Shown one piece after another: positions 33,411 to 61,446 of a stretch of DNA of 64,000 bases. The notes beneath the pieces are model-generated. The model searched no databases. It worked only from the letters and a program-made list of their open reading frames with translations, and was not told the DNA's origin. The position numbers and the translations under genes were made by a program. Source of the DNA: Minwuiaceae bacterium (GTDB lineage Bacteria > Pseudomonadota > Alphaproteobacteria > Minwuiales > Minwuiaceae); the NCBI GenBank assembly GCA_028278525.1, contig JANQEE010000003.1:1-64000 (forward strand), in the 5' to 3' direction. Every line of letters begins with the position of its first letter. The first letter of the stretch is position 1.

Positions 33411-34841
33411 ATGCCGGAAAACGGATTGGTCGCCGTCGTCAAACGAGACTGCCCGACCTGCGTGATGGTCGCGCCGGTGCTCGAGCGGCTGGCGCGCGAG
33501 ACCGGTTTGACGGTCTATTCCCAGGACGATCCGGGCTTTCCGGAAACCATCGCCGATGTCGCCGACGATACCGCTCTCGACGAGTCCTACCGCCTCGGCG
33601 TCGAGATTGTGCCGACCATCGTCCGTTTCGAGGGTGGCGCGGAAGCGGCGCGCACCTACGGCTGGGACCGGGCCGCATGGGAAGGCATCACCGGCCTCGC
33701 CGATCTCGGGCCGGACCTGCCGGCGGTCAAGCCCGGCTGCGGCGGCCTGAACCAGGAGCCCGATCGGCTCGCCGAACTGCGCATTCGTCATGGCGATACC
33801 GGCATCGGCTCCCGCCGGGTCGAGATCGGCGTCAAGGAAGACCCGATCGAGGCCTGCTACGAGCGCGGCTGGACCGACGGCCTGCCCGTGGTGCCGCCGA
33901 CCGAGGCGCGGGTACTGGCCATGCTCGACGGCACGTCGCGTAAGCCCGACGAGGTGCTCGGCGCCATGCCGCCCAACCTCGACCCCTGCACCGTGGAGAA
34001 GGTCGCGATCAACGCCGTCATGGCCGGCTGCAAGCCGGACTACATGCCGGTCCTGCTGGCCGCCATGGAGGCGGTGCTGGACGACGATTTCTGCCTGCAC
34101 GGCGTGCTGGCGACCACCCGCTATGTCGGCCCGGTGGTCATCGTCAACGGCCCGGTCGCGCGCCGCATCGGCATGAATTCCGGCGTCAATGCGCTCGGCC
34201 AGGGCAACCGCGCCAACGCCACCATCGGCCGTGCCGTGCAGCTTGCGATCCGCAACATCGGCGGCGGCAAGCCCGGCGAGATCGACCGTGCCACCCTCGG
34301 CACGCCGGGCAAGTACACCTTCTGCTTCGCCGAGGACGAGGAGAACTCCGCCTGGACGCCGTTCACCGTCGACCGTGGCCTGAAGGCCGGGACCGACGCG
34401 GTCACCGTCTTCGCCGGCAACGGGCTGCAGGGCACCTCGGACGAACGGGCGCGCACGCCCGAGGAACTGGCCGCCACCTTCGCCACCAGCATCCGCGCGG
34501 TCGACAACATCAACAAGTTCCCCGCGCCGGACGTAATCCTGGTGATCTGCCCTGAACATCAGCGCACCATTGCCGAGGGCGGCTGGGACAAGGCCCGTCT
34601 GCACGCCGAGCTGCTGGAGCGTTTGACCGTGCCGGCCGACAGCGTGATGCCGGGGGCCCACGGCATCGCCGAAGGCGTCAGCCGCAAACTCGCCGGCAAG
34701 ACGGTGTGCAAAGTCCCGCCGGAAGGCCTTATGATCGTTCGTGCCGGCGGTGGCGCCGGCAAATTCTCCGGCATCATCTCGGGCTGGACCCCGTCCAACC
34801 CGAACTACAGCCGGGCCGTAACCAAGGAGGTGACGTTTTGA
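33411..34841 (+). CDS. Thioredoxin-like domain fused to an uncharacterised domain; partner of the UGSC selenoprotein
   Basis: A 476-aa protein. Residues 1-95 look like a thioredoxin fold: strand VAVVK, redox motif CPTC (14-17) and the cis-proline context EIVPT (Pro68). From about residue 120 a long domain begins (YERGWTDGLPVVPPT, then TVEKVAINAVMAGCKPDYMPV and HGIAEGVSRKLAG); I recognise it only as a conserved uncharacterised domain. There is no signal peptide. The stop overlaps the TTG start of the selenoprotein gene, so the two are translationally coupled and probably form one redox system: the CPTC site could reduce the Sec/Cys centre of the partner. The C-terminal function is unknown. Confidence 0.75.
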   Translation: MPENGLVAVVKRDCPTCVMVAPVLERLARETGLTVYSQDDPGFPETIADVADDTALDESYRLGVEIVPTIVRFEGGAEAARTYGWDRAAWEGITGLADLGPDLPAVKPGCGGLNQEPDRLAELRIRHGDTGIGSRRVEIGVKEDPIEACYERGWTDGLPVVPPTEARVLAMLDGTSRKPDEVLGAMPPNLDPCTVEKVAINAVMAGCKPDYMPVLLAAMEAVLDDDFCLHGVLATTRYVGPVVIVNGPVARRIGMNSGVNALGQGNRANATIGRAVQLAIRNIGGGKPGEIDRATLGTPGKYTFCFAEDEENSAWTPFTVDRGLKAGTDAVTVFAGNGLQGTSDERARTPEELAATFATSIRAVDNINKFPAPDVILVICPEHQRTIAEGGWDKARLHAELLERLTVPADSVMPGAHGIAEGVSRKLAGKTVCKVPPEGLMIVRAGGGAGKFSGIISGWTPSNPNYSRAVTKEVTF

Positions 34842-35365
34842 CGTCAGACAACATCCTGCTCGATCCGACCTCGGAACGGCAGGCGCCCCATCGCGAGCGC
34901 CTGGGCCGGCCGAAGTCGCTCGAGGGATTGACCGTCGCGGTGCTCGACATCTCGAAGCCGCGCGGCGATGTGTTTCTCGACCGTGTCGCCGACCGCCTGG
35001 GCGAGCACGGCATCGCGGTCAAACGCTACCGCAAGCCGACCGTCGCGCGCCCGGCGCCGCTGGACATCCAGCAGGCGATCACGGACGAATGCGACGTCGT
35101 GGTCGAAGGCCTGGCCGACTGAGGTTCCTGCACGTCGTGCTGTACGCATGACCTGGTGAACCTCGAAGGCCGCGGCCTGCCGTCCGTCGGCGTCGCCACG
35201 ACCGAATTCGTCCAGGCCGCCGCCGTGCAGGCGGAGGCGTTGGGCGCCGATCCGGCCTATGTCTGGGTGCCGCACCCGATTCAGGACCGCACCGACGAGG
35301 AACTCAAGGCCCTCGCCGACCGCCACCTGGACGAGATCCTGGCGGCGATTACCGCGAAGGCCTGA
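34838..35365 (+). CDS. UGSC-family selenoprotein (in-frame UGA read as selenocysteine)
   Basis: A 175-aa protein when UGA at 35120-35122 is read as selenocysteine (residue 95). The reading frame continues without loss of coding character: before it DVVVEGLAD, after it GSCTSCCTHDLVNLEGRGLPSVGV, giving the motif U-G-S-C that names the known UGSC selenoprotein family. Start is TTG 34838, 7 nt after GGAGG and overlapping the upstream stop. Several cysteines follow the Sec (C98, C101, C102). A hairpin begins 11 nt after the UGA. Function is unknown; a thiol/selenol redox role with the upstream thioredoxin-like protein is inferred. A normal gene finder would split it into two fragments. No selA, selB, selC or selD lies in the window. 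Confidence 0.88.
35134..35152 (+). promoter_or_regulatory. Candidate bacterial SECIS hairpin
   Basis: A 7-bp stem GTCGTGC/GCATGAC (one G-U pair) with a 5-nt loop TGTAC starts exactly 11 nt after the UGA at 35120. The distance and minimal stem-loop size match the SelB-binding upper hairpin of E. coli fdhF. The loop carries a GU. Confidence 0.65.
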
Positions 35366-35374
35366 TCGATACAA

Positions 35375-35402
35375 TACCGGCGGCGCCGAAGCGCCGCCGG
35401 TA
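35375..35402. terminator. Bidirectional hairpin between selenoprotein gene and CTERM array
   Basis: A perfect 12-bp stem TACCGGCGGCGC / GCGCCGCCGGTA with a CGAA loop (TTCG on the minus strand) lies between two convergent genes. The following T content is poor on both strands, so termination efficiency is uncertain. Confidence 0.65.
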
Positions 35403-35430: not shown

Positions 35431-36255
35431 TTAAGGCGAGATGTGCCGCCGCCGGTTCGCCAGGCCGAGCCCGACAACGGCCAGACCCAGCAGGCCGAGC
35501 GCCGCCGGCGCCGGCACCGCGTCCGCGGGCTCGAACCGGGTCGTGCCCTGAAGGCCGATCAGCAGGAGGAGGTGGGCACCCTGAGTGGCCCCGATTTCGA
35601 CGGACGTCGGCGTGTTCAGGCCCTGGCATCCGGTCGAATCGAAACTCGAGACCCTGCAGGACAGCAGCAGCTCGCCGGGCTCGAACAGGTCGGCCGGATT
35701 CAAGGGTATGGTCGAGAAGTCGAGCCCCGAAAGAATCTCGCGGCCTCCGTCCAACACCAGCCCGAGTGCGACATCCATGAACACGGCCCCGCCGTCAGCG
35801 GCGGCGACCGAGAAAGTCGAGCCGGAAAACGAGAGGTCGATGGTGGTTGGCTCGGTCTCGAGCGCCACTCCGGCGACGGCGAACCCGGCCGCTTCGGCGA
35901 AATCCGCATTGGCGGCGCCACTGATCGCAGCGCCCAAATCGATCTTGTTGACGCCGTCGAGATTGATGCTCCCGTTTGCGTTGGCGCTCGCCTGGTCGGC
36001 CGGCGTGCCTTTCAGGGCGTGTGCCTTGGCGTCGGCGAATGCGGGGCCGAGATCTGTAACGCCGGTAAACTTGAATTCGAGCGAAATGTTCGCCGTGCCG
36101 TTGAACGATGGCACCGCCCAGGCGCTGCCAGCCATGAAAACCGGCGCCAGGCCGACCGCCAACGCTATCGCGGCCAAATGGCGACCCGGTCCTCGAATTC
36201 TTTGGGTGAACGCCGCTTTCAATGCGGCTGGATTGAGAGATGAGTATTCATGCAT
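35431..36255 (-). CDS. Secreted protein with VPxP-type C-terminal sorting signal (array member 1)
   Basis: A 274-aa exported protein. The start MHEYSS at 36255 parallels MHE starts in the three paralogues upstream. The signal peptide ends near AWAVPSF (about residue 47). The body is beta-rich and low in charge, with a conserved Cys pair (LLSCRVSSFDSTGC). The C-terminus has the sorting pattern VPAP, a hydrophobic helix (ALGLLGLAVVGLGLA) and RRR, as in PEP-CTERM or VPLPA-CTERM proteins processed by exosortases. It is the most divergent of four tandem paralogues. Own sigma-54 promoter (36310-36323) and upstream box (36390-36407). Confidence 0.82.
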   Translation of the reverse strand: MHEYSSLNPAALKAAFTQRIRGPGRHLAAIALAVGLAPVFMAGSAWAVPSFNGTANISLEFKFTGVTDLGPAFADAKAHALKGTPADQASANANGSINLDGVNKIDLGAAISGAANADFAEAAGFAVAGVALETEPTTIDLSFSGSTFSVAAADGGAVFMDVALGLVLDGGREILSGLDFSTIPLNPADLFEPGELLLSCRVSSFDSTGCQGLNTPTSVEIGATQGAHLLLLIGLQGTTRFEPADAVPAPAALGLLGLAVVGLGLANRRRHISP

Positions 36256-36309
36256 GACCCCTGCCTTTCTCAGCAAACGGGGCCCAACCTCATCCGCGAC
36301 ATTTACCAA

Positions 36310-36323
36310 GCAAGATACGTACC
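36310..36323 (-). promoter_or_regulatory. Sigma-54 (-24/-12) promoter of CTERM array member 1
   Basis: Minus-strand TGGTACGTATCTTGCT has GG and GC separated by exactly 10 nt, matching the TGGCACG-N4-TTGCW consensus except for one base. The -12 GC lies 55 nt before the ATG at 36255. Confidence 0.75.
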
Positions 36324-36389
36324 AAGTATGGCAACATTCAATTGATTCAGCGCCTTGGAGCGGAATCATCGTTGACTGGAATGATTGTT

Positions 36390-36407
36390 CTGTAAAATGT
36401 ACCGACA
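36390..36407 (-). promoter_or_regulatory. Conserved upstream box, array member 1
   Basis: Minus-strand TGTCGG-TACA-TTTTACAG, an imperfect dyad (TGTCGG versus TGTAAA), lies 80 bp upstream of the -12 element, the usual distance for a sigma-54 enhancer-binding protein site. Confidence 0.72.
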
Positions 36408-36450
36408 CAAACGGCCCGGCTTTGGAGGATGTCGCCGCTCCGACGCCGAC

Positions 36451-36481
36451 AAAAAAGACGGCGGCGCCGAAGCGCCGCCGT
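36451..36481 (-). terminator. Rho-independent terminator of array member 2
   Basis: On the minus strand a perfect 10-bp stem ACGGCGGCGC/GCGCCGCCGT with a TTCG loop (36458-36481) is followed by CTTTTTT. It lies 31 nt after the stop of the gene at 36512-37378. Confidence 0.92.
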
Positions 36482-36511
36482 TTAGGCCCCCGTAGTCGAC
36501 GGCCCGGCTTG

Positions 36512-37378
36512 TTACGCCGCGACCCGCCGCCGCCGGCTCGCCACGCCCAGGCCGACGACCGCCAGACCGAACAGGCCGAGCGCCGAAGGCGCCGGCACGG
36601 CGTCTGCCGTTTCGCCGGCCGGATCGAACAGGGTACTGCCCCGAATGACGAGCAACGCCGTCAGGGTCAGGTCACTGTTCGGCTCGATACCGACTACTAC
36701 GCCCGTCGTCGATCCGAAGCAGCCGGTCGGGTCCAGCGTCGAGGCGGAGCAGGAATACAGCACGTCTTCCGGCGCGAAGGCATTGGCCGGGTCGAAGAGG
36801 GGGCTGGTGAAAACCACGCCCGACGACGGGGTGTCGTTCCCGTTGCTGCCTGTCGGGCCGGCGTCGTTTGGCGCCAGGGCATTGGTTGCGGTTTCCAGCG
36901 CGAGCAGGAAATCGACCGCCACGAACGCGCCGTCCGTGACGCCGAGCGCGATGCTCGGTCCGCTGATCGACAGGCTGAGAACCGCGCCGTCAGCTGGGCT
37001 TGTCCTGATGCCGATATCGGCGGCCGAGATCGATGCCGCTTCGGCAAAGCTGAGCGGCGCCATCCCGCCGATCGTACCGCCGAGCGACATGCCGCCGGGT
37101 ATCCCGGTCGCCGTCGTCGCCGTTGCGCTTGCGTTGGCGGCATCCGGCGGGGTTCCGGCGTCGGTATAGGTTTGCCTGGCGTAATAGCCTGGGACGACGA
37201 TCCCGCCGAAGCCCAGCAGATCGATTTCAACGTTCGCCGCGCCGGTGAACGACGGCACTGCCTTTGCAGTTCCGGAAACGGCGGTTGATGCCAGGAATGC
37301 CGCCAGCACCACGGCGGGCAGGTGGCGAAGCCTTCGGTATTTGCGCTTGATTGTTTCAGGAGATGGGCGTTCATGCAT
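36512..37378 (-). CDS. Secreted protein with VPxP-type C-terminal sorting signal (array member 2)
   Basis: A 288-aa paralogue of the neighbouring genes. MHERPSPETIKRKYRRLRHLP is followed by a hydrophobic signal peptide ending at TAKAVPSF (about residue 40). Mature start VPSFTGAANVEIDLLGFGG is shared across the array. A Cys pair (YSCSASTLDPTGCFG) precedes the C-terminal signal VPAP, a hydrophobic helix and SRRRRVAA. The tail suggests export, exosortase cleavage and release or attachment to cell-surface polysaccharide. Own terminator, sigma-54 promoter and upstream box show an independent transcription unit produced by segmental duplication. Confidence 0.85.
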   Translation of the reverse strand: MHERPSPETIKRKYRRLRHLPAVVLAAFLASTAVSGTAKAVPSFTGAANVEIDLLGFGGIVVPGYYARQTYTDAGTPPDAANASATATTATGIPGGMSLGGTIGGMAPLSFAEAASISAADIGIRTSPADGAVLSLSISGPSIALGVTDGAFVAVDFLLALETATNALAPNDAGPTGSNGNDTPSSGVVFTSPLFDPANAFAPEDVLYSCSASTLDPTGCFGSTTGVVVGIEPNSDLTLTALLVIRGSTLFDPAGETADAVPAPSALGLFGLAVVGLGVASRRRRVAA

Positions 37379-37431
37379 GTCTTACGCATCCTCATCAATA
37401 AAGACGCGCACCTCCCATGCGCTCCCACTTA

Positions 37432-37445
37432 GCAAAATGCGTGCC
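37432..37445 (-). promoter_or_regulatory. Sigma-54 (-24/-12) promoter of CTERM array member 2
   Basis: Minus-strand CGGCACGCATTTTGCTA has GG-N10-GC and matches GGCACG-N4-TTGCT fully. The -12 GC is 54 nt before the ATG at 37378. Confidence 0.85.
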
Positions 37446-37511
37446 GAGTGAGCAATTGTTGAATCGCATCAATGTGTTGAGGTCTGATGCCGGTTACCGC
37501 GAACCGCGAAC

Positions 37512-37529
37512 CTGTAAAATCCACCGACA
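37512..37529 (-). promoter_or_regulatory. Conserved upstream box, array member 2
   Basis: Minus-strand TGTCGG-TGGA-TTTTACAG, 80 bp upstream of the -12 element; same sequence and spacing in the other array members. Confidence 0.75.
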
Positions 37530-37588
37530 CCGAACCGGTATGCGCGACGGATACCCTGCGCGTCACAAGTTTGCGCCGTCGGAAAGAG

Positions 37589-37612
37589 ACGGCGGCGCCG
37601 AAGCGCCGCCGT
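37589..37612 (-). terminator. Rho-independent terminator of array member 3
   Basis: The same perfect stem ACGGCGGCGC/GCGCCGCCGT with TTCG loop on the minus strand, followed by CTCTTTCC. It lies 31 nt after the stop of the gene at 37644-38474. Confidence 0.85.
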
Positions 37613-37643
37613 TCAGGCCCTCGCGGTCGGACGGCCCGGCTCG

Positions 37644-38474
37644 TTATGCCGCGATCCGCCGCCGGCTCGCCACGCCCAACCCGACGACCGCCAAACCAAG
37701 CAGGCCGAGCGCCGACGGCGTCGGCACGGCGGCGGCCTGGTCGGTCCGCGTCGTGCCCCGAACGGTGAGCACCGCCAGCACGTACTCGTCCGCCTCCCCC
37801 GAAACCGGAACTTTGACCACGTCTGTGGGGCCAAAGCAGCCAGATGCATCCAGATTAGAGGCGGAGCAGGAATAGAGCAGTCGATCCGGTTCGAAGTTGC
37901 TGGCCGGATCGAATACGATGCCTGACAAATCCGGAACAAGCATGGTGGAGGCGCTGCTGCCGTCAGGTGCCAGGGCATCGGGGATGGGTATGGTTCCAAT
38001 CTGGACGTCGACGATGACGAATGCCCCATCCGTGACGCTCAATGCGACGGTCGGAATGTCGATCGAGAAGACCAACAGACCTGCTTGCCCCGATGCGGCT
38101 CGTGGTATGATCCCGCTGTAGGCTTGTATGCCGGCCTGGGCGAAGCTCACCGGCGCCGTTCCATTGATTGTGCCGCTTAAGGAAATGGTCCCGTGCACGC
38201 CGTCTGCCCGGGTGGCCGCGGACTCTGTGGCGGCGGCGTCGGGCGGAGTGCCGATGTCGATGACGCTATCCGAGTCCGCGAAGCTGCCGTTGCTGGTAGC
38301 GTTGAAGCCTTTCAGGTCGATGGTGACATTGGCCGCGCCGGTGAACGATGGCACCGCCATGGCGTTGCCCGGCGCGAAGGCCGGCGCCAGGAAGGCGGTG
38401 AGCATCACCGCCGGCAGGTGGCGAAGCCTTCGATATTTACGCTTGGTTGTTTCAGGAGATGGGCGTTCATGCAT
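37644..38474 (-). CDS. Secreted protein with VPxP-type C-terminal sorting signal (array member 3)
   Basis: A 276-aa paralogue. Its leader MHERPSPETTKRKYRRLRHLP is almost the same as that of member 2, ending NAMAVPSF, and the mature start is VPSFTGAANVTIDL. The Cys pair is in LYSCSASNLDASGCFG. The C-terminal signal reads VPTP, hydrophobic helix and SRRRIAA. The upstream 150 bp are nearly identical to those of member 2, showing a recent duplication that included promoter and terminator. No catalytic motif is visible; a structural or matrix role is inferred. Confidence 0.85.
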   Translation of the reverse strand: MHERPSPETTKRKYRRLRHLPAVMLTAFLAPAFAPGNAMAVPSFTGAANVTIDLKGFNATSNGSFADSDSVIDIGTPPDAAATESAATRADGVHGTISLSGTINGTAPVSFAQAGIQAYSGIIPRAASGQAGLLVFSIDIPTVALSVTDGAFVIVDVQIGTIPIPDALAPDGSSASTMLVPDLSGIVFDPASNFEPDRLLYSCSASNLDASGCFGPTDVVKVPVSGEADEYVLAVLTVRGTTRTDQAAAVPTPSALGLLGLAVVGLGVASRRRIAA

Positions 38475-38527
38475 GTCTTACGCATCCTCATCAACAAAGA
38501 CGCGCACCTCCCATGCGCTCCCACATA

Positions 38528-38541
38528 GCAAAATGCGTGCC
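38528..38541 (-). promoter_or_regulatory. Sigma-54 (-24/-12) promoter of CTERM array member 3
   Basis: Minus-strand GGCACGCATTTTGC (GG-N10-GC), identical to member 2; -12 GC 54 nt before the ATG at 38474. Confidence 0.85.
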
Positions 38542-38607
38542 GAGTCAGCAATTGCTGAATCGCATCAACGATTTGAGACCGAACGCCCGTTGCCGCGAAC
38601 TGCGAAC

Positions 38608-38625
38608 CTGTAAAATCCACCGACA
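38608..38625 (-). promoter_or_regulatory. Conserved upstream box, array member 3
   Basis: Minus-strand TGTCGG-TGGA-TTTTACAG, 80 bp upstream of the -12 element. Confidence 0.75.
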
Positions 38626-38684
38626 CCGAACCGGTATGCGTGACGGACAGCCTATGCGTCACAAACTTGCGCCGTCGGAAAGAG

Positions 38685-38708
38685 ACGGCGGCGCCGAAGC
38701 GCCGCCGT
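38685..38708 (-). terminator. Rho-independent terminator of array member 4
   Basis: Same 10-bp stem with TTCG loop on the minus strand, followed by CTCTTTCC, 28 nt after the stop of the gene at 38737-39564. Confidence 0.85.
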
Positions 38709-38736
38709 TTAGGCCCTCGGTCGACGGCCCGGCTCG

Positions 38737-39564
38737 TTACGCCGCGATCCCCCTCCGGCTCGCCACGCCCAGGCCGACGATCGCCAGACCGAGCAGGCCG
38801 AGCGCCGAAGGCGCCGGCACGGCGGCGGCCTGCTCGGTCCGCGTGGTGCCCCGAACGGTGAGTACCGCAACCAATGTGTTGTTCGCGTTCGGCTCGACGG
38901 AAATTTCCTCGACGTTCGTCGGCCCGAAGCAGCCGGTCGGATCGAGTATCGAGGCCGAACAGGAGAACAACAGGTCGCCCTGATCGAAATAGTCGGCCGG
39001 GCCGAACGGGAACGCCGAGAAGTCCGGTACCAGGGAGGCGGCGGGCCTTTCGTCGCCGGATGCCAGGGCCGGGATGACAGGCAAGATGCCGATCTGGAAT
39101 TCGACGGTCACAAACGCGCCGTCCGCGCTGCTGAGCGCGATCGACGGACCGCTGAACGAGAGGAGCAGGAGGTCTTGTTCGGCTGTGGTCCGAAGCGGAA
39201 CGATGGCTTCGGCATACGATGCCGCCTCGGCAAAACCGACCGGCGCCGAACCGCTGATCGCGCCGCCCAGCGTTATGGTGCCGGGCACGGTTCCCGGAAG
39301 GGCGGCCGAGCCGCTTGCGGTGGCGGCGTCGGACGGGGTGCCGGCATTCTCGAATGTAGAGACACTGTCGAAGTTGGGCGCAACCGACCCGCCGAAGCTC
39401 AGCAGATCGATTGTAACGTTCGCCGCGCCGGTAAACGACGGCACCGCCATGGCGCTGCCCGGCGCGAAGGCGGGCGCCAGAAACGCCGCCAGCAGAATTG
39501 CCGGCAGGCGGCGGCTCTTTCGAACCGTCGCTTTCGTAATGCTTGGAAATGGGAGTTCATGCAT
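38737..39564 (-). CDS. Secreted protein with VPxP-type C-terminal sorting signal (array member 4)
   Basis: A 275-aa paralogue. The leader MHELPFPSITKATVRKSRRLP ends SAMAVPSF, and the mature start is VPSFTGAANVTIDLLSFGG. The Cys pair lies in FSCSASILDPTGCFG, and the C-terminal signal is VPAP, hydrophobic helix and SRRGIAA. It has its own sigma-54 promoter (39615-39628), upstream box (39696-39713) and terminator. It is presumably the same kind of surface protein as the other three, with sequence divergence concentrated in the middle of the protein. Confidence 0.85.
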   Translation of the reverse strand: MHELPFPSITKATVRKSRRLPAILLAAFLAPAFAPGSAMAVPSFTGAANVTIDLLSFGGSVAPNFDSVSTFENAGTPSDAATASGSAALPGTVPGTITLGGAISGSAPVGFAEAASYAEAIVPLRTTAEQDLLLLSFSGPSIALSSADGAFVTVEFQIGILPVIPALASGDERPAASLVPDFSAFPFGPADYFDQGDLLFSCSASILDPTGCFGPTNVEEISVEPNANNTLVAVLTVRGTTRTEQAAAVPAPSALGLLGLAIVGLGVASRRGIAA

Positions 39565-39614
39565 GCTTTACGCATCCTCATCTGCAAAGACGCGCACCTC
39601 CCACGCCAGATAGA

Positions 39615-39628
39615 GCAAAAAACATGCC
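39615..39628 (-). promoter_or_regulatory. Sigma-54 (-24/-12) promoter of CTERM array member 4
   Basis: Minus-strand CGGCATGTTTTTTGCTC shows GG-N10-GC with a T tract before the -12 GC, which lies 51 nt before the ATG at 39564. Confidence 0.8.
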
Positions 39629-39695
39629 GCGCGCGCAAACACTAAATTGAAACAGTCTGTTGAACGCCAAAGGGTCGTTGTTGCCGAAAGCGGTT

Positions 39696-39713
39696 CTGTA
39701 AAAGAATCCGACA
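39696..39713 (-). promoter_or_regulatory. Conserved upstream box, array member 4
   Basis: Minus-strand TGTCGG-ATTC-TTTTACAG, 81 bp upstream of the -12 element. Only the central four bases differ from the other members. Confidence 0.75.
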
Positions 39714-40387: not shown

Positions 40388-41035
40388 CTACGCCGCCGCC
40401 CGCCGGTCGTCGCTGGCCGCCGCCACCGCCTGCCCGGCCAGTTCGTCGGCGAACCCGTGGTTCACGTCCCGGTGTCCGGCTTCGTCCGCCCGCACCGCCA
40501 GCACCACGTCGCGCAGCCGGGCGTCCGGCTTCAGGCCCCAGTACGCAACGGCAATCTCCGGCGCCGGCACGTTATCGTGATGCCCGGCGTCGATCTCCTG
40601 CAGATACCGGGTGTAGGAAACGACGGCCTCCTCCTCCAGATAGCCGACCACCCGATGCGCCGTCTTCGGCGACAGCAGGTAGAGCAGGAAATAGGCGTTG
40701 TAGAACAGGCCCTGGGCGACCAGGATCAGCAGCCGCTCGAACCGGCTCGGCCTCGCCACATGCACGAAGGTCATCAGGTGCATCCGCTCGTTCTCCGCCT
40801 CGTCCAGCAGGGTGCGGATCCAGCCCCGGTCGTCCTCGATCCGCCGCAGGCACTTCAGGTGCTGCAAAGCGCCGCCCACCATGCCTGGCACCGCCGCCAC
40901 GGTCTCCAGCATCACCGCGCGATGGCCGTAGCGTTTCCGAAAAAACAGATCCATCAGCCCGCGCAGCGCCTTCACTGTGGTAAGCGCCAACCGGTCCGAC
41001 AGGCCCTGCGGCGTATGATGGCTAACAAGCTGCAT
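40388..41035 (-). CDS. Alternative oxidase (di-iron ubiquinol oxidase)
   Basis: A 215-aa AOX-family protein that oxidises ubiquinol and reduces oxygen to water without proton pumping, bound to one membrane leaflet. Di-iron ligands are visible: [12 protein letters not shown] (E and ExxH), [10 protein letters not shown] (E) and [12 protein letters not shown] (ExxH), with [11 protein letters not shown] before the second. It lacks the plant N-terminal regulatory Cys region. The start ATG 41035 is chosen because GGAGG lies 5 nt upstream; longer in-frame starts would run into a repeat region. AOX is scattered among alphaproteobacteria and often serves under respiratory inhibition (for example by NO). 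Confidence 0.9.
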
Positions 41036-41130
41036 CGTCGCCTCCGTAAGCAGTATCTTTCCGACATCTTTCAAATGGTGATGCAACCCCGCCGATCGGA
41101 GTGGCATCTTGCCGCATCGCCGATCGATCC

Positions 41131-41205
41131 CTCTCCCGGCGGAAGAGGGCTGCGAAGGCTTGGCGAGGCGAAGGCCGAGCCTTAGCCGGCGCCGGGTGAG
41201 GGGCG
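41131..41205. repeat. Repeat family B-like, degenerate copy 3
   Basis: CCCTCTCCCGGCGGAAGAGGG hairpin, then GGCTTGGCGAGGCGAAGGCC and GCCGGGTGAGGGGCGAG. It resembles the other family-B units with an internal insertion. It lies between the yggS-like stop and the oxidase start. Confidence 0.5.
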
Positions 41206-41240
41206 AGCCTTTCCGCGCGAAAACACTCTGGAGGCTTCGC

Positions 41241-41999
41241 TCACATGCCCGGCCAATACTGGGCGTCGCCGGTCGGCCGCGCCCCAAAAATCGCCTGCCC
41301 CACCCGCACCACGGTCGCGCCTTCTTCGATGGCGATCTCGAAGTCGCCGGACATGCCCATGGAGAGGTCGTCGAACGACAGGCCGTCCGGCGCCTCCTGG
41401 CGCAGCCGGTCGCGCAGCGCGCGGGTCAGAACGAAGCAGCGCCGCACCCGGTCCGTATCGTCGGAAAAGACGGCCAGCGTCATCACGCCTTTCACCCGCA
41501 GCGCGGAGAACGCCGCCAGCTCCCGCGCGAACGGCAGCACGGCGTCGGGGGCGAGGCCGTACTTGCTGGCCTCGCCGGAGCTGTTGACCTGGACGAACAC
41601 GTCCATCGCCCGGCCCTCGATCTGCAGCCGCCGGTCCAGTGCCTCGGCGACGCGCAGGCTGTCCAGCGCCTGGAACTCGTGGGCGAAGCGCGCGACGTAT
41701 TTCGCCTTGTTGGTCTGCAGATGCCCGATCACCGACCAGCGGATGTCCAGGTCGGCCATCGCCGCGGCCTTGGCGCGCGCCTCCTGCACCTTGTTCTCGC
41801 CGAAGTCGCGGCAGTCCGCCTCGTAGGCGAGCCGGATACGATGCTCTTCCACCGTCTTGCTCACCGGCAGCAGCCGGACCTCTGCCGGGTCGCGGCCGGC
41901 CCGCGCGCAGGCTTGCGTGATCCTTAGCTGGACCACATTCAGATTGCGGCGAATGTCGTCGAGCGTCGCCGCTTCCGGAAAAGCGGTGTCGGGCGTCAT
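41241..41999 (-). CDS. YggS/PLPBP-family pyridoxal-phosphate homeostasis protein
   Basis: A 252-aa single-domain TIM-barrel protein that binds pyridoxal phosphate and buffers its level; no catalytic activity is known for the family. PLP-lysine motif LLPVSKTVE, then [34 protein letters not shown] and [28 protein letters not shown] are all present. The start ATG at 41999 is 2 nt after the stop of the upstream amidotransferase-like gene, suggesting an operon. Confidence 0.92.
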
Positions 42000-53168: not shown

Positions 53169-54427
53169 GCCGAGACTGTCCGCGCCAGGCGGCTTTCCAC
53201 CACCCGGAACTTCCGGCCGGCGGGCGGGTCGAGATCGTCCTCGTAGCGGATTTCGACGGTCGCGTTCGGCCCCGCCAGGTCGGCGATGATCGCGGTCAGG
53301 CGGGCGCTTGTCTCCGTGTGGTCTCCATAGTCGCTCTGCGCACGCACGACGAACCGGTCGATGTCGTCCTGCAGAACCTGATAGCGGCTGATGCCGGGCA
53401 CCTGTTCGATCGCCAGCGTAAACCGATAGGGGGAGATGGTGCGGCCGTCGGCCAGCAACACGCTATCCAGCAGCCGTCCCTCGACGCGGCTCAACCGCTT
53501 GAGGCTGCGGCCGCAGCCGCATGTCCCGGTCGGTCCGGGCACGCCCAGGTCGCCTGTCTGGTACCGGATCAACGGCATCCCCATCAGTTCCAGGTTGGTC
53601 ATCACCAGGCTATGGTGTTGGCCGTCGTCGGTGGGCGTGAATTCGACGATCGTCGTGTCCTCGGCCAGGTGGTAGCCCTCGTGTTGCGCGCATTCCCAGG
53701 CAACCAGGCCCATTTCGGTCAAACCGTAGACGTCGTAGATATCGGCGCCGAACGCCTGCTTCAGCAAGCGCCGCGTCCGGTCATCCAGGGCCTCCGCGGT
53801 CGAGATCACCGCGCCGGGCCGGTGCGCGTCGGCGCCGCTTTCCACAATCAGGCTGGCCAGCTGGCGAAGCGGTGTCATGCACCCATACAGCACGTTGGGC
53901 CGGAATGCATTCAGTTGGCCAAGCAGCCGCTCCGGCGCGTCCTCGATCGACGCATAGCGCCAGCCGAGCCAGCGTCGCGACGGCTTTCCCGCATCGGCGG
54001 TGATCAGCATCAGCCGTTTTCCCAGGCGGTAGCCGGCGGTGGTCAGCGCGCGCATGAACAGGGCGTTCCGCGCGCGTTGGAAGGGCTTGTCGAAGCGCAT
54101 CGTGAAGGGCCGGCCGGTCGACCCGCTGGTCGTTTCCGATATCAGGCTGCCCGGCGGAAAGGCGCTGCTGACGATTTGGTCCGGCGGCAGATCAAGCAAC
54201 GTTGCCTTGGTTGTAACCGGCAGCCGTGTCAGGTCTTCGGGCGACCGTATGTCATCGGGTGTCAGGCCCGTATCGTCGAACAGCGTCCGATAGTAGGGGA
54301 CGGTTGCGTAAGCATGGTTCAGCAAGTCTTTCAACTTGCGGGTCTGCAGCGCTCTTATGCTGTCGGCGTCCAGCCATTGCGACCGGTTTAGCCGGTGCAT
54401 GGTCCGGGCGGTGGCGACGATGCTCAT
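53165..54427 (-). CDS. Adenylate-forming enzyme, phenylacetate-CoA ligase/CapK-like
   Basis: A 420-aa AMP-binding enzyme. P-loop SETTSGSTGRPF (about residues 116-127), then YGLTEMGLVAWEC (adenine motif) and YQTGDLG near the hinge. CapK-like members activate an acid as acyl-AMP in polysaccharide gene clusters, possibly to decorate the glycan with an acyl or amino-acyl group. Overlaps of 4 nt with both neighbours show tight coupling to the flippase and the pyruvyl-transferase-like gene. The activated acid is unknown. Confidence 0.85.
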   Translation of the reverse strand: MSIVATARTMHRLNRSQWLDADSIRALQTRKLKDLLNHAYATVPYYRTLFDDTGLTPDDIRSPEDLTRLPVTTKATLLDLPPDQIVSSAFPPGSLISETTSGSTGRPFTMRFDKPFQRARNALFMRALTTAGYRLGKRLMLITADAGKPSRRWLGWRYASIEDAPERLLGQLNAFRPNVLYGCMTPLRQLASLIVESGADAHRPGAVISTAEALDDRTRRLLKQAFGADIYDVYGLTEMGLVAWECAQHEGYHLAEDTTIVEFTPTDDGQHHSLVMTNLELMGMPLIRYQTGDLGVPGPTGTCGCGRSLKRLSRVEGRLLDSVLLADGRTISPYRFTLAIEQVPGISRYQVLQDDIDRFVVRAQSDYGDHTETSARLTAIIADLAGPNATVEIRYEDDLDPPAGRKFRVVESRLARTVSA

Positions 54428-55593
54428 GCCACCAGGCTTCGGTTGAACGCATGCACCTGCTCTCGCAGGACCGCGCTGCTCTGGCCAAGCTTCTCCCCGT
54501 CGTTCAACGCCTGTTCGATCAGCGCCGCCAACTCTTCGGTTCTGCCTTGCCGGACGAACGCTTCCACGTCCATAACGCGGTCCGGAATGCCAAGCAGTTC
54601 GAAGAAACCATGGAATTTGGGATTGTAGGCCAGTCCGACAATGGACGTCGCCATGCCGGCAGCGAAAATGGTTGGGTGCATTCGGCCGCCCAACAGCAGC
54701 GACAGTTGGCCGGTGACGCCTTTATACAGTGCCGGGTCGTCGATATGCAGGACCCTGGCGGCCCCCGACGGCAACCTGTTTTGGATATCCAGGCACAGCC
54801 GGTCGTCGCCTTCGTGCTCCGCGTTGTAGGTCGGTAGCAGCAATATCTTTGCGCCGTGGTGCTCGATCACCTGGCTTAGCACGGTGGCAAGCGCGTCGAT
54901 CAACGGGCCGGACCGGCGGCCCGGCGACGCGCTGAGCGGCGCGAATTTCGCCGCCACGCGCTGCGGTATGATGCGGTTCCCCGGCGGGAACCAGCGCCTG
55001 ACGGCGACGCCGATCAGCGGCTTGTCGTCCACGGCAACGCCTTGCTCGTTCAGCCAGCGTCGGGTTGCCTCGGCCGTCGTCGGTTCAACCAGGATCGCGG
55101 GGTCGGGAATCACCTCGACCGTCTTTCCGGTAACCGGCTGCGCCACGCGCTGTGCGTGGGGGTCCCGGACCGTAACGTGTTCCATACAGGCGAACGCCAG
55201 CCGGGCGAAAAACCGGCTGCTTGCCGCGCGCAACGGACCGACGCCCAGTGCGTATCCGACGACACGGCGGCAAAGCAGCCGCATCAGCAGGCATCGCGCT
55301 GCCCAATACGGCATCTTGATCAGGCTGTCATCGTCCTGAAACAGGCCGCCGCCGCCAACCAGGACAAGATCGCTTCGTGCGGCGGCGACGCATTGGCCGG
55401 GCAATCCGGCCAGACCTGGCCGCAAGATATTGGCGTCGGCGTAGCGTTCCGATCGGCTTGCATCCGCCGACACGACGTTTAACTCCGCGTCCGGATGAAG
55501 CCGGCGCAGCTCTTGGCACATGGACGACAGGATTGCCTGGTCGCCCAGGTTGTGGTCCGCGTCTCCGCCAAGCAGGAGTATTTTGGGTGGCAT
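54424..55593 (-). CDS. Polysaccharide pyruvyl transferase family protein
   Basis: A 389-aa protein of the CsaB/ExoV-type family (PF04230), which transfers pyruvate from PEP to sugars as ketals. N-terminal motif LLLGGDADHNLGDQAILSSMCQEL (with the GD..NLGD pattern), then VLVGGGGLFQDD and, near the C-terminus, SLLLGGRMHPTIFAAGMATSIVGLAYNPK are typical. First gene of the operon with ligase and flippase. It would add a negative charge to the exported glycan. A 306-bp divergent region separates it from the exopolysaccharide export genes. Confidence 0.88.
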   Translation of the reverse strand: MPPKILLLGGDADHNLGDQAILSSMCQELRRLHPDAELNVVSADASRSERYADANILRPGLAGLPGQCVAAARSDLVLVGGGGLFQDDDSLIKMPYWAARCLLMRLLCRRVVGYALGVGPLRAASSRFFARLAFACMEHVTVRDPHAQRVAQPVTGKTVEVIPDPAILVEPTTAEATRRWLNEQGVAVDDKPLIGVAVRRWFPPGNRIIPQRVAAKFAPLSASPGRRSGPLIDALATVLSQVIEHHGAKILLLPTYNAEHEGDDRLCLDIQNRLPSGAARVLHIDDPALYKGVTGQLSLLLGGRMHPTIFAAGMATSIVGLAYNPKFHGFFELLGIPDRVMDVEAFVRQGRTEELAALIEQALNDGEKLGQSSAVLREQVHAFNRSLVA

Positions 55594-55899
55594 GTCGAAA
55601 GACGTTCGGCAGTTTGGTACTCATACTAAGCGGTATCGCGCCGCAAAACTGTCCAGCATTTATGACCAGGATACTGTCAACGGAATGTAAACGTCTTTTG
55701 GCGCCGCTCACAGGAATTTCGGCGTACGGACGGCGGCAATCGCAGCCCCTTGGCTTTTGTGCAATGCAACAGAAATGCCACAAGGCGCCGCTTACCTGGG
55801 TGTTAAGTTGTATTTCCAGAGTTTTGCTGGCGGCTCGCCGAAGCGTGGATGGGCGCCCGGCTTTGGTCGTCGTTGCGTGGTCTGGTGGGCGAACAACGC
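55594..55899. other. Divergent promoter region between two polysaccharide operons
   Basis: About 300 bp without a gene. On the minus strand TTGACAGTATCCTGGTCATAAAT (about 55652-55674) resembles a sigma-70 promoter for the pyruvyl-transferase-like gene with imperfect -10. No sigma-54 promoter like those of the CTERM array was found on either strand. Confidence 0.4.
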
Positions 55900-57183
55900 A
55901 TGCAAACGGTCGGAATGGTTGGGCGTGCGGCAGGCCGTCGGTTGCTTGCCGCGGGTTTTGCGATCGCGCTTTGCGGGGTGGACTGGTCGATGGTTCACGC
56001 GCAGGAGGTCAGCGGGGACGACTTCGTCCTGACCCGGGAGAGGCCGGAATACGACCCGCTCGGAATTCGTGCCGGCGCGTTCATATTTCGCCCGAAACTA
56101 GCCAATAAGGTGCGTTACAACGATAACGTGCTGGCCCGCGAGGACGACGAGGAGGACGATGTCAGCTTTCTCGTTTCGCCCCAGGCGCGTCTGGAATCCG
56201 ACTGGAACAATCATGCCCTCAATCTGGAGGCCGGCGCCGATATCGCCCGCTTCGTCGACCGAAGCGACGAGGATCACGTGGATTACTACGGCGGTCTGGA
56301 CGGGCGCCTGGATATCAACCGAGACACCAGCCTGAGCGGCGGCGTCAACTACTCAAGGTTGAATGAGCCGCGCCGCAACCCCGACGAGGCAGACGGTCAG
56401 GAGCGGACGGAGTTCGACCTGATCCAGGGCGACCTCGCGTTTATCCGCGCGCTCAACCGATTCTCGCTTCGCGTCGACGGCGCCGCCACGCGATTCGATT
56501 TCGACGACGCCGATATCGCGGGCGGCAGCATCAACAACGACGATCGGGACCGCACGGAAGTGCGCGCCGGCGCCCGCGGCGGTTATCGGATCCAGGGTGC
56601 TTACGAGTTGTTTGTCCAGGGCTACGGCAATCAGCGGATTTACGACGCGGCGCGCGACGACAACGGATTGGACCGGGATTCCCGCGGCTTCGAAGTCGCC
56701 GTCGGCGCGGCCGCGGATTTCTCCGGGGTGACCTTCGGCGAGGTGTTCTTCGGCTGGCTGTCGCAGGACTTCGACGACGGCGGTCTGGACAGCATCGACG
56801 GTCCCTTGGTCGGGGCCAGCGTGACATGGAACCCCAGTGGCCTGACCGCGGTCGTCGGCTCGGTCGAATGCACCGTTGAAGAGACGACGTTCACCGGCGC
56901 CTCCGGCTACGTCTCCACCGCTGTCGACCTGACCGTGACCCACGAACTCTTGCGCAACGTCATCCTGGAAGCCGGCGGCAGCTTCGCCCGCAACGACTAC
57001 GAAGGCATCGGCCGCGACGACGATGTGTACGAGGCGGAAGTCGGCGCCCGCTACCTGCTGAACCGCAACGCCTATCTCACCGCCACCTACAATTTCTTCA
57101 AGCGCGATTCCGATCAGGACGTGGGTCAGAACCTGGATTACGACCAGAACGTTTTCGCCATCGGTCTGGAGTTGCAGCTATGA
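55900..57183 (+). CDS. Outer-membrane beta-barrel protein of the exopolysaccharide cluster (BBP2-type)
   Basis: A 427-aa exported protein. A signal peptide spans about residues 10-35 (ending MVHAQEV). The mature protein is made of amphipathic beta strands with many Asp, Asn, Arg and aromatic residues (for example VRYNDNVLARED, YYGGLDGRLDINRD, RYLLNRNAYLTATYNF) and ends in a hydrophobic strand with C-terminal Leu, typical of outer-membrane barrels. Such proteins precede wza/wzc-like genes and are related to EpsL of exosortase-linked EPS clusters. The ATG at 55900 is used; ATG 55849 would add 17 residues. Overlaps the next gene by 4 nt. Confidence 0.82.
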   Translation: MQTVGMVGRAAGRRLLAAGFAIALCGVDWSMVHAQEVSGDDFVLTRERPEYDPLGIRAGAFIFRPKLANKVRYNDNVLAREDDEEDDVSFLVSPQARLESDWNNHALNLEAGADIARFVDRSDEDHVDYYGGLDGRLDINRDTSLSGGVNYSRLNEPRRNPDEADGQERTEFDLIQGDLAFIRALNRFSLRVDGAATRFDFDDADIAGGSINNDDRDRTEVRAGARGGYRIQGAYELFVQGYGNQRIYDAARDDNGLDRDSRGFEVAVGAAADFSGVTFGEVFFGWLSQDFDDGGLDSIDGPLVGASVTWNPSGLTAVVGSVECTVEETTFTGASGYVSTAVDLTVTHELLRNVILEAGGSFARNDYEGIGRDDDVYEAEVGARYLLNRNAYLTATYNFFKRDSDQDVGQNLDYDQNVFAIGLELQL

Positions 57184-57716
57184 ACGTCCGGCCGCTGCTG
57201 CTGGCGGCGGTGCTCGCGGTCGCATCCGCCGCTGCGCTCGCGGCCGACAGCGCCGACCTGGAATATCGCCTCGGCCCCGGCGACCGCATCAAGGTCACGG
57301 TGTTCGGCCACCCGGACCTGTCCGGCGAGTTCGAACTGGACGGCGAGGGCCGGTTCTCCCTGCCGCTGGTCCAGAACGTCGACGCCGCCGGCCTGTCGCT
57401 GCACGAGCTGCAGCAGCGGGTCACCGAAAAGCTGCGCCCCGACTACCTGCGCAACCCGCGCGTCAGTGCCGAAGTGCTGAACTACCGCCCGTTCTTCATC
57501 ATCGGCGAGGTCAAGACGCCCGGCAGTTATGCGTTCGCCAGCGGCATGACCGTGATCAGGGCGGTCGCGCTGGCCGGCGGTTTTACCTATCGCGCCAAAC
57601 AAAAAAAGATGCTGATCACCCGGGCGCGCGACCCGGAGCGGCGTAAGCAGCCGGCCCGGCAGGACACGGTGGTGATGCCGGGCGACGTCATCGAGGTTCC
57701 GGAACGGTTGTTCTAA
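57180..57716 (+). CDS. Wza-type polysaccharide export protein (short form)
   Basis: A 178-aa periplasmic/outer-membrane export protein. A signal peptide (residues 1-21, ALAA) is followed by a poly-export domain LEYRLGPGDRIKVTVFGHPDLSGEFELDG and a SLBB domain (PFFIIGEVKTPGSYAFASGMTVIRAVALAGGF). No lipobox Cys is seen, and the C-terminal barrel helix of full Wza is missing, as in short alphaproteobacterial forms. The ATG overlaps the barrel gene's stop (ATGA). Confidence 0.9.
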   Translation: MNVRPLLLAAVLAVASAAALAADSADLEYRLGPGDRIKVTVFGHPDLSGEFELDGEGRFSLPLVQNVDAAGLSLHELQQRVTEKLRPDYLRNPRVSAEVLNYRPFFIIGEVKTPGSYAFASGMTVIRAVALAGGFTYRAKQKKMLITRARDPERRKQPARQDTVVMPGDVIEVPERLF

Positions 57717-57723
57717 GAGGTTT

Positions 57724-57748
57724 GTTCAAGAATGCCTAGCCGGCCCGC
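57724..57748. repeat. Palindromic repeat family A, half copy 5
   Basis: GTTCAAGAATGCCTAGCCGG-CCCGC matches the left arm and left flank of copy 2 (13873-13897) with two mismatches. It lies in the 53-bp gap between the export and tyrosine-kinase genes. Confidence 0.7.
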
Positions 57749-57769
57749 GCCAAAACGGACGAGGTGCGT

Positions 57770-60046
57770 ATGACAATGGGTACCCACGTATTGGTTCCGC
57801 GCCGCGATCCCGGCGGCGCCATGCTCGAAACCCCGCCTTACGTCCGGCCCGCCTTTGCGCCGCACCAGGGCGACGCGGTCGGCGACCTGCGCGAATTCTT
57901 CCGCACGATCTGGCGCTGGAAGTGGACGATCCTCGGGCTCACGTTCGGGCTGACCATGCTTTGCACGCTGGTCCTTTTCCAGATCACGCCGCTCTACAAA
58001 AGCGATGCGATGGTCATGCTGGAGGCCCGGGAATCGAAGGTCGTCGATCTGGAAGCCGTGGTCGCCGGCCTGCCGCCGGACGTGGAGATCCTGCAAAGCG
58101 AGATCGAGGTGATGCGTTCCCGTGACCTGATGGCCAAGGTCGTCGACCATCTCGGGCTCGCGCAACTGCCCGAATTCAACCGCGCCCTGCGCCCGCCGAA
58201 CCGGCTTGGCGCCCTGCTCGGCCTCGACCGTTGGCTGTTTCCCCTGATCGCAGGCGAAGCGACGGAACTCTCGGCGGACGAACGCCGCATGGCCGAACGC
58301 AACCGCGTCGTGTCCGAGTTGCTGAAGCGGGTCAGCGTCTCGGCGAAAGGCCGCTCGCGGGTGGTCGCGATTGTCGCCACGTCGGAGGACCCCAGGCTCG
58401 CCGCCACCATCGCCAACACCGTCGCCGACCTCTATATCGTCGAGCAGCTGGAGGGCAAGTTCGAGGCGACCCGCCGCGCCACCGCCTGGCTCAACGAACG
58501 GATCGGCGACCTGCGCGAAAGCGTCGCCGTCTCGGAGGAGGCGGTCGAGGATTTCCGCCGCAAATCCGGCCTGATCAAGGGCCGCAGCGTCAACCTGACG
58601 TCGGAACAGGCGTCGGAACTGAATACCCAGCTCATCCTGGCCAGCACGTCGCGGGCCGAGGCGGAAGCGCGGCTCGCCCAGGCGCGCAAGCTGATGGCCT
58701 CGCCCGGCCGCGGCGCCTCGACCACCGAGGTGCTCAACTCGCCGCTGATCCAAAGCCTCAAGCAGCAGCAGGCGGAGGTCGAGCGCCGCGCCGCGGAGCT
58801 TTCCGTCGAGCACGGCGAGAAGCATCCGAAGATGATCAATATCCGCGCCGAACAGAGTGACATCGGCCGCAAGATCCGCGCCGAGATCGGCAAGATCGTT
58901 CAGGGCCTGGAGAACGAGGTGCGCGTTGCCCGCGTCCGCGAGTCGTCGCTCAAGGAAAGCCTCAACAGCATCAAGTCGACCGTGGCCTCCTCGAACCAGG
59001 CGGAGGTCCAGCTGCGGGCGCTGGAACGGGAAGCGAATGCCGACCGCATGCTGCTGGAAACTTTTCTGGCCCGCTATAAGGAGACCAGCGCCCAGCAGGA
59101 CATCAAGTTCCAGCAGCCGGATGCGCGGCTGATTTCCCGCGGCGCCGTGCCGGAGTTTCCGTCCTCTCCGAAGAAGAAGTTGATCGTGCCCCTGGTCGCC
59201 GTCGGTTCCGCGATCATCGGCGTGCTGCTCGCCTTTTTGATCGAGCATCTCAATCCCGGCTTCCGCAGCGCCCAGGAGCTGGAAGCCTATACTGGCCATC
59301 CCGTGCTCGGCCTGCTGCCGAAGCATCGCGGCCGCGTGCTGCGCGGCCGCCGGTTGCACGATCGGGTCGCCAACGAGCCGTCGTCCGAGATCGGCGAGGC
59401 GATCCGAACCATCCACACCTCGATCCACCTCACCAATATGGAGCGCCGGCCCCGCAGCATCCTGGTCACCTCGTCGGAGCCGGGCGAAGGCAAGACCACG
59501 CTCTCCATCGGCCTCGCGCGCACCGCCGCGCGCTCGTTCGACCGGGTCGTGCTGGTCGACGCCGATCTCCGCCGCCCCGCCGTGCATCGTCTCGCCGGCG
59601 TGCGTGCCGGCCCAGGGCTCACCGAGCTGTTGACCGGCGAGGCCGACCTGCGCGAGGTAATCCAGACCGACCCGCTGTCCGGCGCCCATATCATCGCCGC
59701 CGGCGCGACCGACCCCAACCCGCCGGCGCTCTTCACCTCCAGCCAGATGCGCCGCCAGTTGATGAAGCTGGCCGAGCAGTACGACCTGGTGATCCTGGAT
59801 TCGCCGCCGGTGCTCGCCGTCTCCGACACCCGCATCCTGGCCCAGTTGGTCGACGGCACCCTGTTCGCCGTGCGTTGGTACGACACCAAGCGGGAGGCCG
59901 CCGGCATGGGCCTCCGCCAGATCGTCACCTCCGGCGGCGCGGTCATGGGCACGGTGCTCTCGATGGTGGTCCCAAAGAAATACGCCCGCTACGGCGGCTA
60001 TGGCGGCTACGGCATCCCCGGCGCCCGGACGCGCCGGCGGGCCTAG
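57770..60046 (+). CDS. Wzc-type chain-length determinant with tyrosine autokinase domain
   Basis: A 758-aa inner-membrane protein that controls polysaccharide length and polymerisation. Wzz domain between two transmembrane helices (about residues 49-70 and 465-488), with a long periplasmic coiled coil (residues 190-420). The C-terminal bacterial tyrosine kinase has Walker A TSSEPGEGKTTLS, Walker A' VLVDADLRRP and Walker B LVILDSPPV, and a Tyr-rich tail (YARYGGYGGYG) as autophosphorylation sites. ATG 57770 is used; an in-frame GTG at 57764 would add two residues. It forms a cluster with the wza-like and barrel genes. Confidence 0.93.
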   Translation: MTMGTHVLVPRRDPGGAMLETPPYVRPAFAPHQGDAVGDLREFFRTIWRWKWTILGLTFGLTMLCTLVLFQITPLYKSDAMVMLEARESKVVDLEAVVAGLPPDVEILQSEIEVMRSRDLMAKVVDHLGLAQLPEFNRALRPPNRLGALLGLDRWLFPLIAGEATELSADERRMAERNRVVSELLKRVSVSAKGRSRVVAIVATSEDPRLAATIANTVADLYIVEQLEGKFEATRRATAWLNERIGDLRESVAVSEEAVEDFRRKSGLIKGRSVNLTSEQASELNTQLILASTSRAEAEARLAQARKLMASPGRGASTTEVLNSPLIQSLKQQQAEVERRAAELSVEHGEKHPKMINIRAEQSDIGRKIRAEIGKIVQGLENEVRVARVRESSLKESLNSIKSTVASSNQAEVQLRALEREANADRMLLETFLARYKETSAQQDIKFQQPDARLISRGAVPEFPSSPKKKLIVPLVAVGSAIIGVLLAFLIEHLNPGFRSAQELEAYTGHPVLGLLPKHRGRVLRGRRLHDRVANEPSSEIGEAIRTIHTSIHLTNMERRPRSILVTSSEPGEGKTTLSIGLARTAARSFDRVVLVDADLRRPAVHRLAGVRAGPGLTELLTGEADLREVIQTDPLSGAHIIAAGATDPNPPALFTSSQMRRQLMKLAEQYDLVILDSPPVLAVSDTRILAQLVDGTLFAVRWYDTKREAAGMGLRQIVTSGGAVMGTVLSMVVPKKYARYGGYGGYGIPGARTRRRA

Positions 60047-61350: not shown

Positions 61351-61446
61351 TGTATCGTTCCGCTTGGGCCGTCGGCCGTGTCAAATCCGGGGCAACCGGC
61401 CGCGGCGGTGGGATCGCCGTCCCGCTGCCGATAGAGTGCGCGCCGT

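Follow-up and report, generated by a model that had tools for sequence, protein, structure and literature searches.

Introduction

A stretch of 64,000 nucleotides (nt) from the alphaproteobacterial family Minwuiaceae (assembly GCA_028278525.1, contig JANQEE010000003.1, positions 1 to 64,000; henceforth the window) contains four tandem genes for secreted proteins with a C-terminal sorting tail, each with a sigma-54-type promoter and an enhancer-like box of its own. The locus raises the question of which regulatory system these elements belong to, and which proteins of this organism read the box and process the tails. Judged by its sequence, the array belongs to the PEP-CTERM sigma-54 cis-element class already described in 2006. 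It is very probably part of a genome-wide PEP-CTERM regulon whose kinase (PrsK), activator (PrsR) and exosortase are encoded by the organism but missing from the available assembly.

Anatomy of the four-gene array

The array (35431-39564) consists of four minus-strand paralogues encoding proteins of 274-288 amino acids (aa), all with open frames, and the products of genes 2-4 are 43-55% identical to that of gene 1 in a protein alignment. The four proteins align throughout. By eye and from the alignment, each begins with a signal peptide composed of a basic start, a hydrophobic stretch and an AxA preceding VPSF, while the predicted mature start AVPSF and a cysteine pair (C202/C212 in gene 1 numbering) are invariant in all of them. 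The tail pattern VPxP-LG-helix-RR is likewise kept in all four. The tails resemble the PEP-CTERM signal (TIGR02595/PF07589) in combining VPxP, a hydrophobic helix and a terminal arginine cluster, but differ from it in having Pro-Ala-Pro or Pro-Thr-Pro rather than Pro-Glu-Pro, and their scores straddle the family cut-offs: two of the four exceed that of TIGR02595, and genes 3 and 4 exceed that of PF07589 with genes 1 and 2 falling just below (Table 1).

Each gene is accompanied by its own GG-N10-GC site, an upstream box of the form TGTCGG-N4-TTTTACAG and a hairpin beyond the coding region. The GG starts 64, 67, 67 and 68 nt upstream of the ATG in genes 1 to 4, which places the -12 GC 51-55 nt upstream of the ATG, and the gap between the TTTACA of the box and the GG is 68, 67, 67 and 67 nt in the same order. 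An identical 20-nt hairpin with a TTCG loop, GGCGGCGCTTCGGCGCCGCC, lies downstream of all four genes, and the surrounding 113-nt stretch folds at -52 to -59 kcal/mol in each case. An earlier note, made from the letters of this DNA, had described the four paralogues with their signal peptide, VPSF start, cysteine pair and VPxP-helix-Arg tail, and had assigned to each a separate promoter, box and hairpin with the -12 element at this distance; the open reading frames (ORFs), alignment and site positions agree with that description.

Table 1. Features of the PEP-CTERM-type array, in window coordinates
Feature	Coordinates	Strand	Remarks
Enhancer box, gene 1	39696..39713	-	TGTCGGATTCTTTTACAG
Sigma-54 promoter, gene 1	39614..39629	-	CGGCATGTTTTTTGCT, best-scoring site
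Gene 1	38737..39564	-	PEP-CTERM-type protein, 275 aa; tail matches to PF07589/TIGR02595 below cut-off
Sorting tail, gene 1	38740..38820	-	VPAP-helix-RR
TTCG hairpin, gene 1	38687..38706	-	terminator-like, downstream of gene
Enhancer box, gene 2	38608..38625	-	TGTCGGTGGATTTTACAG
Sigma-54 promoter, gene 2	38527..38542	-	CGGCACGCATTTTGCT, best-scoring site
Gene 2	37644..38474	-	PEP-CTERM-type protein, 276 aa; tail matches to PF07589/TIGR02595 below cut-off
Sorting tail, gene 2	37647..37727	-	VPTP-helix-RRR
TTCG hairpin, gene 2	37591..37610	-	downstream of gene
Enhancer box, gene 3	37512..37529	-	TGTCGGTGGATTTTACAG
Sigma-54 promoter, gene 3	37431..37446	-	CGGCACGCATTTTGCT, best-scoring site
Gene 3	36512..37378	-	PEP-CTERM-type protein, 288 aa; TIGR02595 16.9 vs cut-off 16; PF07589 above cut-off (genome search)
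Sorting tail, gene 3	36515..36598	-	VPAP-helix-RRRR
TTCG hairpin, gene 3	36460..36479	-	downstream of gene, then T-run
Enhancer box, gene 4	36390..36407	-	TGTCGGTACATTTTACAG
Sigma-54 promoter, gene 4	36309..36324	-	TGGTACGTATCTTGCT, best-scoring site
Gene 4	35431..36255	-	PEP-CTERM-type protein, 274 aa; TIGR02595 16.5 vs cut-off 16; PF07589 above cut-off (genome search)
Sorting tail, gene 4	35434..35517	-	VPAP-helix-RRR
TTCG hairpin, gene 4	35379..35398	-	downstream of gene

The ectodomains are more isolated. A reverse-translated profile search with the four-protein alignment recovered no relatives of the array proteins in 84,980 genomes, and blastp detected no ectodomain resemblance to the other PEP-CTERM proteins compared. 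An AlphaFold2 model built from the four sequences predicts a beta-rich fold at low confidence (mean pLDDT 66), for which Foldseek gave no confident match; its best VIA-align match, Bdellovibrio Bd1399 (8okh, Z 8.4), may reflect just a common arrangement.

Recurrence of the box and promoter in the genome and its relatives

The genome that contains the window (5.95 Mb in 71 contigs, 98.5% complete) has 8 exact occurrences of the box, and 54 matches when up to two mismatches are allowed, as against 12 for the reversed pattern. Requiring a GG-N10-GC site at 52-82 nt from the box leaves 22 matches, representing 21 distinct boxes, with none for the reversed control. The earlier note had predicted that the box would precede other sorting-tail genes and that rpoN would be present. 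Both expectations are borne out, as PEP-CTERM genes follow 17 of the 21 distinct boxes and rpoN is found at C31:33102 (PF04552, E 5.5e-71). Approached from the proteins, 63 PEP-CTERM-like tails were examined, and a box with a sigma-54 site was found at 29 of their genes with loose scores and at about 22 with strict ones.

The same combined pattern occurs seven times each in a same-family relative (G001) and in a second relative (G009), once or twice in each of seven other genomes, and in none of the rest. The spacing mode of 63-68 nt is conserved between the window's genome and these two PrsR-bearing relatives, whose own spacing is 63-65 nt. Taken together, the approximately 22 strictly matched genes and the spacing class common to three genomes make this a clear alphaproteobacterial case of a PEP-CTERM sigma-54 regulon. 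The assignment to this class draws on the earlier note and on the PrsR of the same-family relative, whose best matches are alphaproteobacterial. Three further genomes that have PrsR (G020, G022 and G059) show no match to the strict combined pattern, and the box or its spacing may differ in them. At some sites another box lies some 110 nt upstream of the first, or the spacer measures 75-87 nt; across the window's genome, G001 and G009 the sites outside the 63-68 nt class are too few for a claim of helical phasing.

Some sites lie apart from recognizable PEP-CTERM genes. At C27:77420-77760 a box and a sigma-54 site, spaced by 65 nt, are followed about 220 nt later by the hairpin GGCGGCGGCTCTTCGAAGCCGCC, and no PEP-CTERM ORF was found between promoter and hairpin; the unit could encode a small RNA or be what is left of a promoter-terminator pair. 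A box and sigma-54 site at C3:25301-25396 precede a small membrane protein of 61 aa, Flp pilin-like by eye, which has no Pfam or NCBIfam match, and those at C14:1100-1196 precede a non-PEP-CTERM protein of 288 aa with no NCBIfam match.

Relationship to described PEP-CTERM systems

Haft et al. 2006 (PMC1569441) described, upstream of proteobacterial PEP-CTERM genes, a 17-nt motif 1 ending in TTTACA, separated by a mean spacer of 62.8 nt from a sigma-54 motif 2, and associated this arrangement with PrsK, PrsR and PrsT. The array shares with that cis-element the TTTACA-ending 17-nt box, the spacer class of about 63 nt (67-68 nt for the four genes and 63-68 nt for most sites elsewhere) and the -24/-12 site, as well as the organization in single-gene units with a box that is at times repeated upstream. 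It differs from the described system in that PrsK and PrsR were not found in the assembly. The earlier note had set this arrangement in an alphaproteobacterium beside known cases in some betaproteobacteria; it is not a new extension to that class, as Haft et al. 2006 (PMC1569441) already listed the alphaproteobacterium Rhodospirillum rubrum with the motif, PrsK and PrsR, and G001 and G009 are further instances.

Experimental precedent comes from Aquincola, in which a PEP-CTERM gene is RpoN-dependent and a GG/GC start site has been mapped (PMC9850573). The pepA gene of Aquincola tertiaricarbonis (PMC9850573) shares the GG/GC promoter, the enhancer-like box and the downstream hairpin with the array genes, but is a single gene adjoining prsT rather than one of a four-gene tandem set. 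The XrtA system (TIGR03109) provides another point of comparison: its TIGR03013 glycosyltransferase is present here and XrtA itself in G001, whereas no exosortase was found in this assembly.

The missing regulator and exosortase

The earlier note further predicted a PrsR-like activator and an exosortase, and neither was found in this assembly, though both are present in the same-family relative. Its proposal of sigma-54 units of the PrsK/PrsR type is accordingly upheld as regards rpoN and the box at many sorting-tail genes, but not as regards PrsR and the exosortase. We consider it most likely, from the pattern of genes retained and missing, that their absence reflects a block missing from the assembly. 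Several observations weigh against this. Across the whole assembly no exosortase was detected with PF09721, the best activator reaches 378 bits where the TIGR02915 (PrsR) cut-off is 502.6, and TIGR02916 (PrsK) yields generic kinase-domain matches only, all in an assembly of high estimated completeness. Moreover, at several of the contig ends examined the break falls at a short repeat, so that an entire block of about 25 kb could have gone missing only through a binning or filtering step. The repeats also make contig-end joining uninformative. Candidates for the exosortase obtained with TIGR04178 (best E 0.07) are ORFs unlike exosortases on inspection.

In favour of a gap, G001 and G009 possess PrsR and an exosortase, together with XrtA, its chain-length protein and a full-length PrsK. 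A single contig of G009 carries the XrtA cluster as well as PrsK, PrsR and PrsT inside about 35 kb, so that one absent block could account for all the absences. A gap is favoured because the boxes and tails are intact and because the XrtA-system glycosyltransferase TIGR03013 (C28:94336-95718, 561 bits vs cut-off 393) is left over.

Alternatively, PrsK, PrsR and the exosortase could truly have been lost, with another enhancer-binding protein reading the box and another protease handling the tails, which we regard as unlikely. Every component of the XrtA cluster tested is absent bar TIGR03013: XrtA and its chain-length protein were not found in the window's genome, nor were the TIGR03016-type protein, FemAB, the neighbouring glycosyltransferase, the deacetylase and PrsT, which occur in the G001 clusters. 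In addition, the assembled DNA past the TIGR03013 gene carries a GGDEF/EAL gene and not prsK, and a prsKR remnant adjoining it was sought and not found. Against a true loss, about 20 genes keep box, promoter and tail intact, which is what a working system should show. Seven further genomes in the sample have PEP-CTERM tails, and six of them have an exosortase, the exception being only 77% complete.

The comparison of activators with PrsR likewise weighs against such a replacement. The window's genome encodes seven AAA+ activators, which, partly by inference from hidden Markov models (HMMs) or gene context, look like DctD, a LuxO-like protein, NtrC, NtrX, FlbD and PspF, plus one unassigned on C53. 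In a tree of six of these with seven PrsR proteins (the presumed NtrX, in which the GAFTGA pattern was unmatched, was left out), the PrsR clade has a support of 1.0 and contains none of the six, and the SRPTLY recognition helix common to the seven PrsR proteins is present in none of them. The LuxO-like activator on C28, which has a hybrid kinase, is the least assigned candidate for a replacement and in this respect speaks for one; as a hidden PrsR it was ruled out by HMM and tree. That a large PEP-CTERM regulon with intact PrsR-type boxes and sigma-54 promoters runs without PrsK, PrsR and exosortase, a different activator having taken over recognition of the box and a different membrane protease the processing of the tails, appears marginally less probable still. 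If the absence were nevertheless true, it would break the proteobacterial co-occurrence reported in 2006 without exception and would point to an unknown processing enzyme.

It is far less probable that the regulon is a silent and decaying relic of a system whose regulator and exosortase were recently lost. The failure to find PrsR, PrsK and the exosortase in the assembly and the box-promoter-hairpin unit on C27 with no PEP-CTERM gene inside would fit such decay, but most boxes and -24/-12 sites fit the consensus and the four array frames are all open.

If, as we favour, the system is complete in the organism, the RpoN holoenzyme would occupy the -24/-12 site of each gene, and a phosphorylated PrsR-type activator, bound some 65 nt before the GG at the 17-nt TTTACA-ending box, would drive open-complex formation, making each gene an on/off unit ended by its own hairpin. 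The products would be exported via the signal peptide. Their C-terminal VPxP-helix-Arg tail would hold the predicted beta-rich ectodomains until cleavage by an exosortase releases them to the cell surface or the exopolysaccharide matrix. Binding of PrsR to the box, processing of the tail and the role in the matrix are steps that we infer.

Common descent and selection within the array

The earlier note took the constant spacing, combined with a variable box centre, as a sign of selection. Within the array this argument is weak. Over the 200 bp upstream, genes 2 and 3 share 89% identity, as against 66% for their coding regions, and their box centres are identical; the two genes are therefore not independent cases, and part of the fixed spacing of the array is, on this comparison of sequences, due to common descent. 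Better support for selection comes from the same spacing at unrelated PEP-CTERM genes and in two relatives. The notion that promoters and boxes are mere by-products of recent tandem duplication with no regulatory meaning, to which the similarity of genes 2 and 3 might lend itself, can practically be dismissed, as the upstream DNA of genes 1 and 4 is only 44-59% identical to that of the others and yet keeps box, promoter and spacing, and as genes unrelated to them, on other contigs as well as in other genomes, are preceded by the same arrangement.

Genes 2 and 3 (36512-38474) also form a mosaic, in which identity is 79-90% over promoter, signal peptide and tail but about 59% over the ectodomain, which suggests either conversion of the flanks or rapid change of the exposed part. 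The array provides an instance of tandem genes in which the exposed part diverges and similarity is retained in promoter, signal peptide and tail.

Neighbouring loci

An exopolysaccharide cluster at 54424-63998 encodes a pyruvyl transferase, a BBP2_2 barrel, an export protein, a Wzz/tyrosine kinase and a flippase. Beyond it and outside the window (C69:65-66 kb) are two PEP-CTERM genes, followed by the contig end. Next to the downstream end of the array, on the opposite strand, lies a UGSC family selenoprotein gene (34835-35362, plus strand) with an in-frame TGA at 35120-35122. Reading this codon as selenocysteine gives an NF041046 score of 147 bits (cut-off 125), and a stable hairpin (z -4.05) lies 3' of the UGA. 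On the other side of the array is a minus-strand gene for an alternative oxidase (40388-41287; PF01786, E 1.5e-85).

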